Below are positions 10,237 to 42,749 of a stretch of DNA of 50,007 bases, piece after piece; position 1 is the first letter of the stretch, and the number at the start of each line of letters is the position of its first letter. The notes under the pieces were generated by a model that saw only the letters and a program-made list of their open reading frames with translations, searched no databases and was not told the DNA's origin. Position numbers and translations under genes: made by a program. This stretch comes from Candidatus Wolfebacteria bacterium RIFOXYB1_FULL_54_12 (lineage in GTDB: Bacteria > Patescibacteriota > Minisyncoccia > UBA6257 > UBA9933), in assembly GCA_001793895.1 (NCBI GenBank), contig MGIT01000002.1, forward strand, positions 85,520 to 135,526. Reading direction: 5' to 3'.

Positions 10237-10265
10237 TTGACACCGAATACTATATATTGTATAGT
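10237..10265 (+). promoter_or_regulatory. Canonical promoter of DEAD-box helicase gene
   Basis: TTGACA (10237-10242), 17-bp spacer, TATAGT (10260-10265). The expected start near 10272 gives a leader of about 277 nt, in contrast to the leaderless genes around it. Confidence 0.75.
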
Positions 10266-10271
10266 GAATCG

Positions 10272-10548
10272 TCAGTTCAAATTAAATCAGGTCGGTCTCG
10301 AAAGACGCCGACGGATTCCTTATCGCCACCCGTACATACGGAGACCGTAGGCGAATGAACTTCTTGTCATGTTATTGCTATGTGATTCGAGTTACCATAA
10401 GGAATCGCACAACTGAAATGCACAATTTTGGCGAACTGCATCGTTGCCTTCCTCGTTTGCTCCCGCGGAGTAGTTTACTACACCTTGGTTGCAAGCCTCG
10501 TCGGCGCCTTGCATTTCATCCAAAATGGCGCGTTTCAAACAATAATGT
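10272..10548 (+). promoter_or_regulatory. Long structured 5' leader of DEAD-box helicase mRNA
   Basis: Two structured blocks are visible. Block 1: 10-bp arms 10314-10323 with 10397-10406, enclosing CGCC/GGCG (10324-10327 with 10350-10353) stacked on hairpin 10337-10341/10345-10349. Block 2: 9-bp arms 10414-10422 with 10510-10518, an inner hairpin GTAG/CTAC (10470-10473 with 10478-10481), and a competing or pseudoknotted pairing 10425-10431 with 10520-10526. No reading frame with an SD is seen inside. A cis-regulatory RNA is likely, and temperature control is one possibility. Block 2 may also be a copy of a dispersed structured repeat. Confidence 0.6.
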
Positions 10549-12063
10549 ATGACAACTAAAAAACCCACCGAGGGTTTTTACGGGCTCGGCATTGCGCCGA
10601 AATTGCTCGAGATCCTCGACAAGAAAAAATTCACCACACCGACCCCCATTCAGCATGAGGCTATTCCGGTCGCCATCGGCGGCAAGGATATGATCGGCAT
10701 TGCGCAGACGGGAACGGGTAAAACGCTTGCATTCGGTATTCCGATGATTCAGCGCCTTGCAAGCGGCAACAGTCAGGGCGTCATTTTGGTCCCGACGCGC
10801 GAACTTGCATTGCAGGTTGACGAACAGATACAGGCCATCGGCCGCGATCTCGGATTGTATACCGCAGTTCTGATCGGTGGAGCATCCATCGAAGTGCAGA
10901 AAAAAATGCTGCGCAGAAACCCGCACATTATCGTAGCAACGCCGGGTCGGTTCCTTGACCACATGAACCAGCGCACGCTCCGATTGGAAGGCGTGAACAT
11001 GTTGGTGCTCGACGAGGCGGATCGCATGCTCGACATGGGATTTGCGCCGCAGATCAACAAGATATTTGAGGCATTGCCGAAGGTGCGACAGACGCTGTTG
11101 TTTTCCGCAACCATGCCGGCGGATATCGTAAAGATAGCGCAAAAACACATGCAGTTGCCGGTACGCGTTGAAATGGCGCGCCCGGGTACTACGGCGGAAA
11201 ATGTCATTCAGGAAATGTTCATCGTTCGCAAGGATGATAAGGATCGTTTGCTGGAGGCCTTGCTTGGAACCTATCAGGGAACGGTGCTGGTATTTTCGCG
11301 CACGCGCCATGGCGCAACGAAGATCTGTCGCGCGATCAAGCGCATGGGGCATACTTCGGCCGAGATACACTCGAACCGATCGCTGTCTCAGCGAAAGGAG
11401 GCCTTGCTTGGCTTTAAGATAGGTAAATATCGCACATTGGTTGCAACCGATATCGCCGCACGCGGCATTGACGTAACGGGAATTGAATTGGTCATCAACT
11501 ACGACCTTCCGGATAGTCCGGAAGATTATGTGCACCGCATTGGGCGCACGGGCCGCGCAGGCGCAAAGGGCCGCGCGATATCGTTTGCGGCACCGGACCA
11601 GCGGTTCAAGGTGCGCATCATTGAGCGCTTGGTTCAGTCACAGATCCCTTCATTACAGCTTCCGGAATTGCCGCCGCATCGCGAGCCCGCATTTCGTGAA
11701 GAGGAAGAAGATAGTCGGGAATCCCGCGGTAGCCGTTTTGGCGGACAGCGGGGAGGAGCTCGCCGTCCGTTTGGGCGAAGCAACGAGCGAGGCGAAGGTT
11801 TCGCGCCGCGAAGGCCGATGCTTGAAACGCGAGCCCCGCATGCAGGCACAGCGCCTGCACGAAGGTCCGCGGCAACACCGACAGCTTCTGCCGCAATGGG
11901 AGAACGATCACCGCGGGAACGCGTGATCGCATCCGGAAATCGCGAAGATCGACGCAAGTCGGTCCAGCGTGGTCCGGCCAAAAAAAGCGATCGGGGAGGT
12001 TCTTCTCATGGACGCATGTTCGGGAAGAAGCCGCGCAAGAGCGCAGGTAAATCTGAACGATAA
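10549..12063 (+). CDS. DEAD-box ATP-dependent RNA helicase (RhlE-like)
   Basis: A 504-residue helicase of superfamily 2. Visible motifs are TPTPIQHEAIP (Q motif), AQTGTGKT (residues 52-59), PTRELALQ, TPGR, DEAD in VLDEADRMLDMGF (about 153-158), SAT, ARGIDV and HRIGRTGRAG. The core ends near residue 370. The rest is a basic Arg/Gly/Ser-rich tail (RGSRFGGQRGGARRPFGRSN) typical of RhlE/CsdA-like proteins that act on structured rRNA and mRNA. It has no SD and starts at ATG 10549; an ATG at 10545 is out of frame. Family role: ribosome assembly and mRNA unwinding, often important in the cold. Confidence 0.95.
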   Translation: MTTKKPTEGFYGLGIAPKLLEILDKKKFTTPTPIQHEAIPVAIGGKDMIGIAQTGTGKTLAFGIPMIQRLASGNSQGVILVPTRELALQVDEQIQAIGRDLGLYTAVLIGGASIEVQKKMLRRNPHIIVATPGRFLDHMNQRTLRLEGVNMLVLDEADRMLDMGFAPQINKIFEALPKVRQTLLFSATMPADIVKIAQKHMQLPVRVEMARPGTTAENVIQEMFIVRKDDKDRLLEALLGTYQGTVLVFSRTRHGATKICRAIKRMGHTSAEIHSNRSLSQRKEALLGFKIGKYRTLVATDIAARGIDVTGIELVINYDLPDSPEDYVHRIGRTGRAGAKGRAISFAAPDQRFKVRIIERLVQSQIPSLQLPELPPHREPAFREEEEDSRESRGSRFGGQRGGARRPFGRSNERGEGFAPRRPMLETRAPHAGTAPARRSAATPTASAAMGERSPRERVIASGNREDRRKSVQRGPAKKSDRGGSSHGRMFGKKPRKSAGKSER

Positions 12064-15039: not shown

Positions 15040-15068
15040 TTGTCAAATTATATGGATTATGCTATTAT
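15040..15068 (+). promoter_or_regulatory. Promoter of ABC-F gene
   Basis: TTGTCA (15040-15045), 17-bp spacer, TATTAT (15063-15068). Transcription should start near 15075, after the ATG at 15069. Confidence 0.6.
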
Positions 15069-15107
15069 ATGGCCATAAGTACGGCACGGGCCGATTTTTT
15101 TAACACC

Positions 15108-16562
15108 ATGGCACACGGAAACGTCATTATCAGATTCAACGAGGTATCATTTGGATACCAGCATAACCGCCCTCTTTTGGAGGAGGCGGATTGTTCGGTG
15201 CGCGAAGGGGCAAAGGTGACCATCATGGGGCAGAATGGTGCAGGGAAAAGCACATTGTTCAAGCTATTGTTAGGAGAGCTGGAGCCGACCGAAGGATCTA
15301 TTGCCATAGAAAAAGATGCATCGATCGCCATTGCGCGGCAGGTGCTTTCGCGCGAACAGCTCGAGCTGACCGTGAAGGAGTTTTTTGAGAGCATGTTCGA
15401 TCGCAAGGTGTATGATATCGATCCGAAGATCGCGGAGGTGTTGGAAGTGGTCAATTTGCATGCGCCGCTCGATCGGCAAATGAAGACATTTTCCGGCGGG
15501 CAGCAGGCGCGTTTGCTGTTGGCATCGGCGTTGATCCAGAAGCCGGACATTTTATTGCTCGACGAACCGACGAACAATTTGGACAAGGCGGGTATCGCCC
15601 ATTTGACGGCGTATCTGAAGGCATACGACAAGACCTGTTTGGTCATTTCCCATGACGCAGAGTTTTTAAATGCGTTCACGCACGGAGTTTTGTATTTGGA
15701 TGTATTCACACGAAAGATAGAACAATATACCGGAGATTATTTTAAGGTAGTGGAAGAGATCAAGCGTCGCCTTGAGCGCGAACGCAGTCAGAACGCGCGT
15801 TTGGAAAAAGATATTTCAAACCGCAAAGAGCAGGCGAACTTTTTTGCGCAAAAGGGCGGCAAGCTGCGCAATGTTGCGGCGACCATGCGTGAAAAGATAG
15901 AAGAGCTTGAGGAAGACAAGGTTGACATACGGCGCGAAGACAAGACGATCCCGGCGTTTACTATTGGCAATCAGGATATATCCCACCCTGCGGTCCGGTT
16001 CGAGTCGGTATGTATCGTCAAGGACCATAAGCGCGTAGGAAAGAAATTTGAGCTGATCCTGCGCAAGAAGATGCACTTGCTTATTACGGGGCCGAATGGC
16101 ATCGGTAAAAGCACATTGCTTGAAGCATTGTACAACGGAACGGAAAAAGGCATGAAGATCGAAAGCGGCACGATCGTCGGTTATTATCGGCAGGATTTTT
16201 CCACGCTCGATTTTGATGCAAGCGCGTATGATGTATTGAAGGAGGTCGCGCTTGATGCGACCGACCAGGACATCCGCGGCGCTGCGGCACGATTTTTGAT
16301 CACTGGCGATCTGCTCGCTGCAAAAGTGAGCAGCTTGTCCGAAGGGCAAAAGGGGCTGCTGTCGTTCGCACGATTCACCTTGCAAAAACCGGGCCTGTTG
16401 ATTCTTGACGAGCCCACCAACCACATCAACTTCCGTCACTTGCCGGTCATTGCAAAGGCGCTGGACAAATACGAAGGCGCCATGATACTGGTAAGTCACA
16501 TGCCAGAATTCGTAAAACAGATCCGCATCGACGAAGAGTTGGATCTCGGGAAAATCGGATAA
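15108..16562 (+). CDS. ABC-F family ATPase
   Basis: A 484-residue protein with two ABC ATPase domains and no membrane part. Domain 1: GQNGAGKST, signature FSGGQQARL, Walker B LLLDEPTNNLD. A charged linker (about residues 225-300) follows. Domain 2: GPNGIGKST, an unusual signature LSEGQKGLLSF, Walker B LLILDEPTNHI. ABC-F proteins bind the ribosomal E site and relieve stalled or drug-bound ribosomes. An in-frame ATG at 15069 would add 13 residues, but it lies directly after the -10 box, so 15108 is preferred. The second domain's signature deviates from SGGQ. Confidence 0.9.
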   Translation: MAHGNVIIRFNEVSFGYQHNRPLLEEADCSVREGAKVTIMGQNGAGKSTLFKLLLGELEPTEGSIAIEKDASIAIARQVLSREQLELTVKEFFESMFDRKVYDIDPKIAEVLEVVNLHAPLDRQMKTFSGGQQARLLLASALIQKPDILLLDEPTNNLDKAGIAHLTAYLKAYDKTCLVISHDAEFLNAFTHGVLYLDVFTRKIEQYTGDYFKVVEEIKRRLERERSQNARLEKDISNRKEQANFFAQKGGKLRNVAATMREKIEELEEDKVDIRREDKTIPAFTIGNQDISHPAVRFESVCIVKDHKRVGKKFELILRKKMHLLITGPNGIGKSTLLEALYNGTEKGMKIESGTIVGYYRQDFSTLDFDASAYDVLKEVALDATDQDIRGAAARFLITGDLLAAKVSSLSEGQKGLLSFARFTLQKPGLLILDEPTNHINFRHLPVIAKALDKYEGAMILVSHMPEFVKQIRIDEELDLGKIG

Positions 16563-37642: not shown

Positions 37643-40600
37643 ATGACCAGCGACGCATTTCAAGAGGCATACGACAAACTGAACGCGCAACAAAAACATG
37701 CCGTGGACACCATTGAAGGGCCGGTCATGGTCATTGCGGGGCCCGGTACGGGCAAAACGCAGATACTCACGCTCCGCATCGCCAATATATTGATGCGGAC
37801 CGATACGGAGCCGGACAATGTACTGGCATTGACGTTTACGGAATCCGGAGTCGCCTCCATGCGTCGCCGGCTTATGGAAATGATAGGTGGTCCGGCGTAT
37901 GCGGTCGCCATCAAGACTTTTCATGGATTTTGCAATGACATCATCGGAAACCATCCGGAATATTTTCCGCGGATCATCGGATCGGAGCCGGTGACCGATG
38001 TCGATCGCGCGCAGATCATCGAGCGCATACTCGAAACGGCGCCGCTTGAATTGTTGCGCCCGTATGGCGATCCGACCTACTATGTAGGAAAAGTTTTGAC
38101 ATCGATCGACAAGCTGAAACAGGAGGGTATTTCGGTGGATCGGTTCGATGAGATAGTAGCACAGGAGTTGCGAATATTCGAAGGCATCGAGGACTTGTAT
38201 TACGACAAGGGGGCCCACAAGGGCAAGATGAAGGGTGCTTACCAAAAACAGCAGAAGAATATAAACAAGGCAAGTGAACTGGCGCTGTTGTATCGGCAGT
38301 ACGAGCAAGCGCTTCGTGAGCAAAAGTGGTACGACTATGCGGATATGATCATGGAAGTACTCGCCGTGTTGGAGCGCGACAAGAATCTGTTGCTGTTGTT
38401 ACAGGAACAATATCAGTATGTGTTGGTCGACGAACACCAAGATACGAATAATGCGCAAAACCGCATAGTGGAATTGTTGTGCGGGTTTCATCAAGACCCG
38501 AATTTGTTCGTGGTTGGCGATGAAAAGCAGGCGATCTACCGATTCCAAGGCGCATCGCTCGAGAACTTCCTCTATTTTCAAAAGCTTTATCCATCTGCGG
38601 AGTTGATCGTGTTGGAAGAAAACTACCGCTCCACGCAGGTCATCCTCGACGCCGCACACGGCGTCATTCCCGGGAAAAAAGAATTGCGGGCAAATGCTCC
38701 CCACGAAGCAAAGCCAATCCGCATTGGTGCGTTTACGACCGAAGACGCGGAACGGTATGGCATTGCAAAAGACATCAAAGAACGCATGGCGCACGGAGTA
38801 ACGCCGGAGAATGTCGCGATACTCTACAGAAACAACCGGGATGCGTTTCCTTTGTTGGAAATGCTTGAACGCATGGGCGTTCCTGCCGTCATAGAATCGG
38901 ATCAGGATATTCTGCGGGATAACGATATAGAAAAGTTGATTTGCATATTGCGTGCGATCAATGCGTTCGGCTTGCCCGAAGATCTCATCAGAATGCTGCA
39001 CATAGATTTTCTCGGAGTTGAACCGCTTGATCTGTACAAATGCATTGAATATGCAAATCGTAACCGCATGTCGATTTACGATGTGCTGCGTTCCGGGCAA
39101 CTGCTGAAAGGCGAACCTCTGCGACTGGAGCAACCCGATGCGCTGCTAACCATGTACGAAAGCATGGTACGCTGGAGTGCGACGGCAAGAAATAAAGGGT
39201 TGGCGGAAAGTGTGGAGGTGATCATGCGTGAGTCGGGATTGTTGGCGCATATGCTTGCAGGTTCGGAACCGGTGGAAAAAATGGAGAAACTTTCGGCGTT
39301 TTTCGATGAGATAAAAAAATTGATCGAAGCGCACCGCGATGCAAAACTTGCGGACCTGTTCGTTCATTTGGATGCCATGGAACGCCACGGGTTGACGATA
39401 AAGAGAAGTATCGGAGGATACGGAACGGGGAAGGTGCACTTGATGACGGCACATCGCTCAAAAGGGCTTGAATTCGATCATGTGTATATCATCAATGCGT
39501 TTGATACGCATTGGGGCAATAAAAAAAGCAGGGAGCTGTTAAAATTGCCCATGGCTGTCTTTGCGCGTGCAGACAAACCCATGCAGGATGACGAGGATGA
39601 AAATGCCGACGAGCGCAGGTTGTTTTATGTTGCACTCACCCGCGCAAAACAAACGGCAACAGTAACCTATGCGAAAGAAAACATACAAAAGCGCATGCTA
39701 TTGCCATCGCTTTTCATAGGCGAGCTGCGGGAAGATCTTTGCGAGCCCATGCCGATAGAACAACACGAGCAAGAACTGGCCCTGCACAAAGAAGTGCTGT
39801 TTGCGCCGCGCACAAGCACAACGGTGAATATCCGCGATAAGGAATACATCAAGGAGCTGTTCATGCGCAACGGCCTTTCTGCGACCGCGCTTAACAACTA
39901 CTTGGTCTGTCCGTGGCGTTATTTCTACTCAAACCTCTTGCGCATCCCGGGAGCGCCGGAAAAGTATCAGATGTTCGGTACGGCGATCCATAATGCATTG
40001 CAGGATTTTTTCAATGCACTCGCCGAACGGGGCGCCGACAGGCAATTTCTTATCGATAAGTTCGCGTATCATTTGGGAAAACAGGCAATTTCGGGAAGAG
40101 ATTTCGAGGATGCAAAAAAGAGAGGGGTAGCGGCGCTCGAAGGATATTACGATACCTATCACCACGCATGGCGAGGAAACGTGCTTACCGAGTATGCGGT
40201 AAGCGATGTCATGATAACGCCGGAAATTCGCTTGACCGGAAAGATAGACAAAATCGAATTTCTTGATGCGGGCAACAAGGTGAATGTAGTCGACTACAAA
40301 ACGGGGAAACCGAAATCACGCAATCAGATCGAAGGCAAGCCAAGGGAAACAGAGGGGGATGAAGCCGAAGAAGCGCAACATGAAGGAGGAGCCATAAAAC
40401 GGCAATTGGTTTTTTACAAAATATTGTTGGACCGCCAAGGTAAATACGACATGGCTTCGGCCGATGTTGATTTCATAGAACCGATGCCGAGCGGAAAATA
40501 TAAAAAGGAAATGTTTGAGGTGACACCGGACGAGGTCGGCATGCTTGAAAAAGAGATCATACGGGTTGGAACGGAGATTCTTGAGGGAATATTTTGGGAA

Positions 40601-40657
40601 AAGCGCTGCGGGGATTCAAAATGCGAATACTGCGCGCTGCGCGATATGATGGCATAG
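37643..40657 (+). CDS. UvrD-family helicase fused to a PD-(D/E)xK, Fe-S nuclease
   Basis: A 1004-residue protein. Superfamily 1 helicase motifs are AGPGTGKTQ (residues 32-40), LTFTESGVASMRRR (Ia), VLVDEHQDTN (II, about 262-270, with DEHQD instead of the usual DEFQD/DEYQD), GDEKQAIYRFQGA (III), ENYRS (IV), TAHRSKGLEFDHVYI (V) and RRLFYVALTRAKQ (VI). The C-terminal 260 residues are a RecB/AddB-type nuclease: TALNNYLVCPWRYFYS, LTGKIDKIEF, NVVDYKTGK and a terminal CGDSKCEYC. The four Cys are placed to hold a [4Fe-4S] cluster, as in AddB and Cas4. It probably processes DNA ends in recombination. Confidence 0.92.
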   Translation: MTSDAFQEAYDKLNAQQKHAVDTIEGPVMVIAGPGTGKTQILTLRIANILMRTDTEPDNVLALTFTESGVASMRRRLMEMIGGPAYAVAIKTFHGFCNDIIGNHPEYFPRIIGSEPVTDVDRAQIIERILETAPLELLRPYGDPTYYVGKVLTSIDKLKQEGISVDRFDEIVAQELRIFEGIEDLYYDKGAHKGKMKGAYQKQQKNINKASELALLYRQYEQALREQKWYDYADMIMEVLAVLERDKNLLLLLQEQYQYVLVDEHQDTNNAQNRIVELLCGFHQDPNLFVVGDEKQAIYRFQGASLENFLYFQKLYPSAELIVLEENYRSTQVILDAAHGVIPGKKELRANAPHEAKPIRIGAFTTEDAERYGIAKDIKERMAHGVTPENVAILYRNNRDAFPLLEMLERMGVPAVIESDQDILRDNDIEKLICILRAINAFGLPEDLIRMLHIDFLGVEPLDLYKCIEYANRNRMSIYDVLRSGQLLKGEPLRLEQPDALLTMYESMVRWSATARNKGLAESVEVIMRESGLLAHMLAGSEPVEKMEKLSAFFDEIKKLIEAHRDAKLADLFVHLDAMERHGLTIKRSIGGYGTGKVHLMTAHRSKGLEFDHVYIINAFDTHWGNKKSRELLKLPMAVFARADKPMQDDEDENADERRLFYVALTRAKQTATVTYAKENIQKRMLLPSLFIGELREDLCEPMPIEQHEQELALHKEVLFAPRTSTTVNIRDKEYIKELFMRNGLSATALNNYLVCPWRYFYSNLLRIPGAPEKYQMFGTAIHNALQDFFNALAERGADRQFLIDKFAYHLGKQAISGRDFEDAKKRGVAALEGYYDTYHHAWRGNVLTEYAVSDVMITPEIRLTGKIDKIEFLDAGNKVNVVDYKTGKPKSRNQIEGKPRETEGDEAEEAQHEGGAIKRQLVFYKILLDRQGKYDMASADVDFIEPMPSGKYKKEMFEVTPDEVGMLEKEIIRVGTEILEGIFWEKRCGDSKCEYCALRDMMA

Positions 40658-40668
40658 AAAGAATGGTA

Positions 40669-40688
40669 AAGCCCGCTTCGGCGGGTTG
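40669..40688 (+). terminator. Intrinsic terminator
   Basis: Stem AAGCCCGC/GCGGGTT with a TTCG loop (40669-40688) after the helicase-nuclease gene. Confidence 0.75.
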
Positions 40689-40711
40689 TTTACATACATA
40701 TAAGCAAGGTC

Positions 40712-40740
40712 TTTACACTTTTAACCATTTCCGATATAAT
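40712..40740 (+). promoter_or_regulatory. Canonical promoter of typA leader RNA
   Basis: TTTACA (40712-40717), 17-bp spacer, TATAAT (40735-40740); start expected near 40747, about 218 nt before the typA ATG. Confidence 0.75.
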
Positions 40741-40746
40741 GATAAC

Positions 40747-40962
40747 TCAATTAATAAACGTTGCCCTGAGTGCCCGTTCGGAATCTAATGCTTAGCCAGA
40801 ATTATAAAATTTTGAGCGAAAGCCGCTAATTTCGAGGAAGCATATCGAGATACGCTGACGGAGAATTAACGGCTTGCAGCCAAAATTTTGACATTCTGGC
40901 AGGCAAGCATGCATGTAATTCCACATGCGGTTAGATTACGAGCGGGCACTATGGGCTTTTTT
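40747..40962 (+). ncRNA. Rod-like structured leader RNA of typA with terminator-like closing helix
   Basis: Nested helices seen by eye: 40763-40766 with 40953-40956; 40769-40776 with 40943-40950 (8 bp); 40782-40788 with 40931-40937 (7 bp); 40795-40802 with 40893-40900 (8 bp); 40806-40814 with 40881-40889 (9 bp); 40822-40831 with 40864-40873 (one mismatch). There is a side hairpin 40911-40916 with 40923-40928. The closing helix is followed at once by T6 (40957-40962), then ATG 40965. It could be an attenuator, a thermosensor, or a free RNA of about 200 nt (6S-like size). I cannot assign it to a known family. Confidence 0.6.
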
Positions 40963-40964
40963 AT

Positions 40965-42749
40965 ATGGAAATCCGCAATATTGCGATCATCGCACACGTA
41001 GACCACGGCAAAACAACGCTTACCGACGCCATCTTGAAACAAACAGGGGCAGCCGCCGAGGGGGTCAGCATGGATAGCAACACGCTCGAAAAGGAGCGTG
41101 GCATCACTATCTACGCAAAGAATGCGTCCGTCATGTACAAGGGAACAAAGATCAACATTGTGGATACCCCGGGCCACGCGGATTTTGGCTCCGAGGTTGA
41201 GCGCGTATTGCGTTCCATCGATTCCGTATTGTTGGTCGTCGACGCACAGGAAGGTCCGATGCCGCAGACCCGGTTCGTATTGAAGAAATCGCTTGAACTC
41301 GGGCTGCAACCGATCGTGATCATCAACAAAATAGACAAACCGGCCGCAAACCCTGCGGCGGCGCACGAAATGGTGTTGGAACTGTTTATGGACCTTGGCG
41401 CAACCGACAAGCAACTCAATTTTACGACCGTTTACGCGATAGGCCGCGAAGGAATAGCGAAAAAGAATCTCGAAGACGATTCAAAGGATCTTGTGCCGCT
41501 TTTGGATGTGATCATCGACGAAGTGCATCCGAGCCACATGCGCGACGATCTGCCGTTCCGCGCACAGCCGTTCAACCTCGCCTATGATAATTTCTTGGGC
41601 CGCCTTGCGATAGCGCGCGTGTACGAAGGAACGGTAAAGGTGGGCGATACCATCACCATCAAAAAACCGACCGGCGAAACCCGCCCCGGCAAGATCACTA
41701 AACTCTTTACATTCAAAGGGTTGGAGCGTATCGATTCTCCGTCGGTCAGTTCGGGTGATATCGTCATGATCGCCGGATTGGCAAACATCGACATTGGAGA
41801 AACGCTTTGCGCGAACCCCACGCAGGAAGCATTGCCGGCGATCGCCATCGACGAGCCGACCATCTCTCTGAACTTTTTGGTCAATGATTCTCCGTTCGCA
41901 GGAAAAGAAGGCAAGTTTGTAACTACCCGCCAGATCAAAGAGCGTCTCGAAAAGGAACTTGAGGTAAATGTAGGTTTGAAAGTCGACTTCATGGAGGGTG
42001 AGAGCTTCAAGGTATACGGACGCGGTGAAATGCATATCGCAATTCTGCTCGAAAATATGCGTCGCGAAGGTTTCGAGTTGCAGGTATCCCAGCCGCAGGT
42101 TGTTATGCATGAAGAAAATGGACACCGCATGGAACCGTTCGAGGAGGTCGTCATAGACGTGCCGGAAAAGATGGCCGGTGTGGTCATCGAAACGCTGGGT
42201 AAGCGTCGCGGCATCATGACGCAGATGAAGCAGGTAGAAAGCTATACGCGCTTGTTGTTTGAGATCCCTACGCGCGGATTGCTCGGTTACCGTGGCCAGT
42301 TCACCATAGATACGCGCGGTGAAGGCATTTTGTGTAGCCGCTTCATCGGCTTTCGCCCGCACGCAGGAGAGATCATAAAGACGGAACTCGGTTCCATGAT
42401 ATCCATGGTAACCGGCAAGGCGCTGGCATTTTCATTGGCCAACCTGCAGGATCGCGGAACGTTGTTCATTGAAGCAAATACCGAGGTCTACGAAGGCATG
42501 GTCATCGGCAATACGTCAAAAGGAAATGACATGACGGTAAATCCGATCAAGGGAAAACAGCTTACAAACATGCGCGCATCCCGTGCGGACGAAGCCATTC
42601 AGCTGGTCCCGCCGTTGACGGTAACGCTTGAGCGCGGGCTTGAAGTGATGTCCGAAGATGAATACCTGGAAGTGACCCCGAAGAGCGTTCGCTTGCGCAA
42701 GCAAAGTTTGAACGAGACCGACCGGTCCAAGGCATCAAAGAAAAAATAA
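40965..42749 (+). CDS. typA: Ribosome-associated GTPase TypA/BipA
   Basis: A 594-residue translational GTPase. G1 is AHVDHGKTTL (residues 10-19), the switch I Thr is in EKERGITI, G3 is DTPGHADF, G4 is NKID. Domains II and III follow, and the C-terminal BipA-specific domain includes GNTSKGNDMTVNPIKGKQLTNMR. BipA aids 50S assembly, especially in the cold. It has no SD: the ATG comes two bases after a T6 run. A long structured leader precedes it. Confidence 0.97.
   Translation: MEIRNIAIIAHVDHGKTTLTDAILKQTGAAAEGVSMDSNTLEKERGITIYAKNASVMYKGTKINIVDTPGHADFGSEVERVLRSIDSVLLVVDAQEGPMPQTRFVLKKSLELGLQPIVIINKIDKPAANPAAAHEMVLELFMDLGATDKQLNFTTVYAIGREGIAKKNLEDDSKDLVPLLDVIIDEVHPSHMRDDLPFRAQPFNLAYDNFLGRLAIARVYEGTVKVGDTITIKKPTGETRPGKITKLFTFKGLERIDSPSVSSGDIVMIAGLANIDIGETLCANPTQEALPAIAIDEPTISLNFLVNDSPFAGKEGKFVTTRQIKERLEKELEVNVGLKVDFMEGESFKVYGRGEMHIAILLENMRREGFELQVSQPQVVMHEENGHRMEPFEEVVIDVPEKMAGVVIETLGKRRGIMTQMKQVESYTRLLFEIPTRGLLGYRGQFTIDTRGEGILCSRFIGFRPHAGEIIKTELGSMISMVTGKALAFSLANLQDRGTLFIEANTEVYEGMVIGNTSKGNDMTVNPIKGKQLTNMRASRADEAIQLVPPLTVTLERGLEVMSEDEYLEVTPKSVRLRKQSLNETDRSKASKKK

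Follow-up and report, generated by a model that had tools for sequence, protein, structure and literature searches.

A terminator-like hairpin ahead of typA in Patescibacteria, a candidate transcription attenuator with a long RNA rod in its loop in one Wolfebacteria lineage

Terminators ahead of genes can be melted by RNA chaperones, as with the Csp-responsive terminators of the E. coli nusA-infB-rbfA-pnp region. Premature termination of transcription within 5′ UTRs has been described in E. coli (PMC7815308), where BipA (TypA) is needed for 50S maturation and for growth at suboptimal temperature (PMC8313970, PMC6962249). Gene regulation is poorly understood in Patescibacteria, and a literature search found no report of a typA/bipA attenuator. 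Here, a window of 50,007 nucleotides from Candidatus Wolfebacteria bacterium RIFOXYB1_FULL_54_12 was analyzed, in which a promoter-like site, a hairpin and a U-tract precede typA; at the sequence level, this arrangement is conserved and recurs at typA genes. From these features we infer that transcription would terminate at the element, that termination would be regulated and that a trigger would set it.

The typA leader and its rod

The typA gene of the window genome (G000) encodes 594 aa (ORF 40965-42749, forward strand, as are the terminator, promoter and leader features below). Full-length relatives were identified by protein search, with 93-99% identity in the congeners (G001, G002 and G003) and ~70% in other Patescibacteria; the nearest named ones belong to Candidatus Wolfebacteria RIFOXYD12_FULL_48_21 (G003) and GW2011_GWB1_47_1 (G002). 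Upstream of typA lies a UvrD/PcrA-type helicase gene (37643-40657), and its probable terminator, a hairpin past the stop codon (AGCCCGC-TTCG-GCGGGTT, 40669-40687), sits upstream of the typA promoter. The latter is recognized at sequence level as a sigma70-type promoter (TTTACA-17-TATAAT, 40712-40740) with 11 of 12 consensus positions. Transcription is predicted to start at ~40747, and the start of the transcript, CTCAATTAAT (40746-40755), is identical in four congeners. There is no Shine-Dalgarno sequence ahead of typA, and a U-tract lies directly before the AUG region.

When the 218 nt from 40747 to 40964 were folded, positions 40763-40956 formed a single long rod (-94.3 kcal/mol) with 72 pairs, five of them G-U. 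None of 200 shuffled sequences was as stable (-52.5 ± 4.7 kcal/mol; z = -9.0), which confirmed the rod of nested helices that the initial annotation had proposed here. Its helices had been given as 7-10 bp; the rod is real, but the closing helix has merely 4 bp (GCCC/GGGC, 40763-40766/40953-40956) and is separated by a 3x3 internal loop from a helix of 12 bp (40769-40780/40939-40950). Located 4 bp above the U-tract, this loop may weaken a terminator. Further helices of 7 bp (40783-40789/40930-40936), 4 bp (40790-40793/40901-40904), 8 bp (40795-40802/40893-40900), 10 bp (40805-40814/40881-40890), 6 bp (40820-40825/40870-40875) and 6 bp (40827-40832/40863-40868) lead to the apex (40834-40862), where GAGGAAG...GACGGA surrounds a terminal hairpin, and a side hairpin (GCATGT/ACATGC, 40911-40928) branches off the rod. 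The closing helix is followed by T6 (40957-40962) as first described, but an AT spacer, missed in that description, separates T6 from the typA ATG at 40965.

The rod sequence is a near (imperfect) palindrome, and both strands therefore fold about equally, with the opposite strand reaching -90.6 kcal/mol (z = -9.2). The fold alone is thus no proof of a functional RNA made from the typA strand, and the case for one rests on conservation and position. Between G000 and G003, the leader has one difference in 222 sites while typA differs by 8.2%, nearly all of it at third codon positions; the first 53 coding bases of typA are identical. In sliding windows of 218 nt across the 50 kb, these two genomes have a median identity of 87%, and the rod ranks with the best-conserved windows. 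The sole leader change, U to C at 40792 where the partner is G40902, replaces a G-U pair with G-C, and with two near-identical examples of the rod a covariation test of its pairs reaches this one wobble change. A gene-conversion tract over the leader and the start of typA would also give such identity between G000 and G003.

The hairpin with and without the rod

In G001 and G002, the equivalent promoter (TGGACA-17-TATAAT) and CTCAATTAAT are followed by only TGCCCCAAAGGGC-T6-AT-ATG or TGCCTCAGGGGGC-T6-GT-ATG. These two congeners keep the layout GCCN-loop-GGGC-U6-AU/GU-AUG without the rod, as a hairpin of few bp that ends ~40 nt from the transcription start. A search pattern made of the -10 box plus CTCAATTAAT (TATAATNNNANCTCAATTAAT, up to two mismatches) was found once per genome in four genomes, each time at typA. 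Both the 5′ half of the closing stem (GCCC, 40763-40766) and its 3′ half with the terminator-like end (GGGC + U6, 40953-40962) are shared with the rod-less congeners, and the rod (~186 nt, 40767-40952) therefore sits in the loop of a small terminator-like hairpin. Among 244 genomes of the order, the rod was present in G000 and G003 only, with one copy each, for which reason it was rejected as a multi-copy or mobile (MITE) element; none was found in phages, plasmids or viral contigs, the last scanned with two exact patterns. Most simply, the sequences suggest a ~185-nt insertion into the loop of an older hairpin, which on the simplest reading would have occurred in the ancestor of G000 and G003; loss of the rod from the other congeners would be less simple. 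A rod present and absent within one genus offers a rare natural before/after case of an RNA domain inserted into an expression platform.

Upstream regions of typA were compared in three sets: 67 genomes of the order, a second group of 75 mostly named loci, and 34 from the phylum at large. A hairpin was scored as a perfect stem of ≥4 pairs, ≥3 of them G-C, at ≤ -4 kcal/mol, followed by ≥4 T in 6 and within 25 nt of the ATG; since neither the rod itself nor a hairpin lying further upstream is caught by this rule, the resulting counts are lower bounds. Hairpins with a U-tract were found at a minimum of 27/67, 29/75 and 5/34 typA genes, respectively, when shuffled sequences predicted 1.6, 1.2 and 0.6 (for the order, 40% versus 2%). 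About 60% of the typA genes in the set have no detectable hairpin, and some of these look leaderless. Control genes of the same genomes scored 3/37 (lepA), 0/30 (csp) and 5/28 (ABC-F), which differs from typA with Fisher p = 3e-4 for lepA and p = 3e-8 for the three pooled. The background was taken from the window together with 400 kb of G002, where a loosely defined hairpin was seen at 24 of 401 genes, mostly outside leader position.

The upstream gene is divergent at 30 of the typA loci, and 14 of these still carry the hairpin, which is therefore not the terminator of that gene. Stem sequences vary by clade (GCCC/GGGC, GGCC/GGCC, CCGC/GCGG, TCTGC/GCAGA and others), so that pairing is kept rather than sequence. 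The layout of promoter, hairpin, U-tract and ATG recurs at typA across Patescibacteria, the hairpin lying a median of 18 nt from a -10-like hexamer. In the first two sets together, 41 of 56 hairpins have such a hexamer upstream, compared to 50% after shuffling, which is only moderately above chance in such AT-rich DNA. A -10 hexamer placed 4-10 nt before the ATG was more frequent at typA genes lacking the hairpin (21/114 versus 3/62, p = 0.01); many Patescibacteria typA genes show this placement (L080, L097, L098, L099, L103, L106 and others), as do 9/37 lepA genes, which suggests leaderless mRNAs for both. Literature searches found no paper in which Patescibacteria, leaderless mRNAs and Shine-Dalgarno sequences are treated together, and nothing of use on transcript starts in this phylum.

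Other leaders were also observed. The ABC-F gene of the window is preceded (15040-15108) by a promoter (TTGTCA-17-TATTAT) and a hairpin (CGGCACGGGCCG) with T7 directly before the ATG, and G001 and G002 have a similar hairpin past the promoter, but there a copy of a dispersed rod (see below) separates hairpin and ATG. ABC-F was rejected as a second broad target because conservation of this layout does not extend beyond the genus to the phylum. The csp genes of Paceibacteria relatives (L250-L279) have a common leader motif, AGTCGAgTTTCT, usually 15-45 nt before the ATG and often inside a possible small hairpin, GAAAC-AUAGUCGA-GUUUC.

Attenuation and rival readings

We consider the typA leader to be probably a promoter-proximal transcription attenuator, which in the window species would need the rod to fold. 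The order of its parts argues for transcription attenuation: a promoter-like site lies upstream of the hairpin in the window genome (TTTACA-17-TATAAT) and in its congeners, and a GC-rich stem with a U-tract (GCCC/GGGC-U6) stands between transcription start and ORF. RNA polymerase would start at ~40747, transcribe the leader and meet the terminator at GGGC-U6, whose stem is closed by the GCCC near the leader's 5′ end. Some polymerases would stop at ~40962 and release an RNA of ~215 nt, and the remainder would read through into typA. In the rod-less congeners, the same device would take the form of the short hairpin, whereas in the window species and one sister the folded rod would join ends that are 190 nt apart. 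Folding of successive leader prefixes formed the closing stem only once the 3′ end had been made, with the 5′ GCCC free or paired elsewhere before then; a terminator in the window species therefore depends on completion of the rod, and delayed or altered folding of the rod would raise typA expression. Prefix and temperature folds of the leader produced no clear antiterminator fold. A leader peptide was rejected, as the short congener leaders contain no ATG and no signal supports the one short ORF of the rod, of 13 codons. Of the three options raised by the initial annotation, attenuation is the best supported, given the promoter, the GCCC/GGGC-U6 retained in congeners and the recurrence at typA.

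The same parts could instead act after transcription, the U-rich stretch aiding ribosome binding and the hairpin or rod shielding the 5′ end from nucleases. This would suit a gene without a Shine-Dalgarno sequence whose AUG is single-stranded and directly preceded by the U-tract, but that tract also lies directly behind a GC-rich stem, as in a terminator. Moreover, in these genomes most leaders of lepA, csp and ABC-F have no such hairpin, and the element is therefore not a general start signal there, which makes a purely post-transcriptional role rather unlikely. Also unlikely is a reading of the rod as a palindrome, passive or selfish (foldback or MITE-like), that inserted into the hairpin loop and has no function of its own. 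The rod's presence and absence within the genus, its imperfect palindrome on both strands and the other dispersed rod elements of these genomes would all be expected of such an insertion; however, the rod is single-copy, has no relatives in the 244 genomes, the phages, the plasmids or the searched viral contigs, shows no target duplication, and lies in a leader that has barely changed while typA diverged by 8%, almost entirely at third positions. Quite unlikely is a free-standing small RNA of ~215 nt, 6S-like or trans-acting, with typA reached by read-through. The locus does have a promoter, a compact rod and a terminator-like end of its own, but the RNA is confined to two sister species and the other congeners keep promoter and terminator without it. 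Rfam covariance models (gathering score and E ≤ 10) gave no 6S or other relevant match in 40600-41100, and the 6S-like RNA first suggested, which might be the product of termination, is less well supported on this ground and because two of 244 genomes is a distribution unlike that of 6S RNA.

A thermosensor controlling typA in the cold had also been put forward, with appeal to the role of BipA. E. coli BipA is indeed needed at suboptimal temperature (PMC8313970, PMC6962249), and 6 of the 42 relatives with Csp (G048, G084, G018, G012, G061 and G053) carry a csp gene no more than 4 kb from typA, where ~0.5 would be expected. However, the closing helix keeps a pairing probability of 0.96-1.0 between 5 and 65 °C, and the AUG stays outside the main structure and is not sequestered, on which grounds an RNA thermometer was rejected and a thermosensor is very improbable. 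No Csp protein was found in the window genus, and hairpin presence is independent of Csp presence (13/28 versus 22/39, p = 0.46); the published E. coli work and the typA-csp clustering are what stands of the cold link, while Csp-dependent antitermination was rejected as well. In several relatives (e.g., L118 and L125), typA lies near ABC-F or DEAD-box helicase genes, and the typA/csp/ABC-F/DEAD-box neighborhood is possibly a cold or ribosome-assembly cluster. For the attenuator, a cold or ribosome-assembly signal is a reasonable guess as the trigger because of the csp genes near typA and the role of BipA in 50S maturation.

More tentatively, and with greater doubt than belief, the typA attenuator may be conserved across Patescibacteria as an undescribed class of riboregulator, to which one Wolfebacteria lineage added a sensor-like RNA domain inserted in the terminator loop, so that the device is seen before and after the gain. 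A terminator-like element that stands before typA in many families while its sequence changes would give a concrete RNA switch, open to testing, with a link to ribosome assembly.

Dispersed rods and described systems

A separate family of dispersed, ~135-nt rod-like hairpins with no Rfam match was observed in these genomes (loci L357-L410; window copy at 10405-10538, reverse strand). Thirteen copies were counted in G000 (model R2), 26-30 in G001/G002 (up to 30 in G002) and 16 in G003 (model R1), and 23 in G033; elsewhere in the phylum the distribution is patchy, and distant Patescibacteria have a few. Compensatory changes were seen at 25/39 and 33/38 pairs in alignments of two subfamilies. Frequently, a copy is found tens of bases or less from a start codon, in either orientation, and the neighbors, named from protein sequence, include rpsL, tuf, rnpA, greA, ABC-F and DEAD-box helicase genes. 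The window copy is contained in the ~276-nt leader (within 10237-10548; promoter TTGACA-17-TATAGT) of a DEAD-box RNA helicase gene (10549-12063); this leader is ~99% identical to that of G003 and folds strongly (z = -5.1).

Like the typA rod, these rods occur in leaders near start codons of translation genes, and the apical motif GAGGAAG/GAC(C/G)GA is common to both. The typA rod is the only match to this motif in the window, with 0.04 expected, for a pattern that was chosen after seeing both. Conversely, the basal module GCGAGGCGC/GCAACGAAGC conserved in the dispersed rods is absent from the typA rod, and an nhmmer profile of the family did not match this rod. The typA rod scores 15.6-16.1 bits against R2, a true copy 95, and a plain hairpin of the window 20.4. 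Based on this low score, the missing module and the post hoc motif link, membership of the typA rod was rejected. The dispersed family is probably more interesting than the typA leader and deserves its own study.

Among described RNAs, 6S RNA is likewise a ~200-nt rod with its own promoter; the typA rod differs in having no covariance-model match, in its restriction to one lineage and in its position directly before an ORF. The Csp-responsive terminators of E. coli resemble the typA hairpin in standing ahead of ribosome biogenesis or cold genes, yet the window genus has no Csp and hairpin presence does not track Csp. Terminator-type attenuators (riboswitch, T-box and leader-peptide systems) share with the typA leader the order of a promoter and then a terminator-like hairpin with U-tract before the ORF. 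They differ from it in that the typA leader has no known aptamer, T-box or leader ORF, and typA was not found described as a target in the literature searched. The typA version is, furthermore, very short in the congeners, at ~40 nt, whereas in the window genome its stem closes a 190-nt rod.
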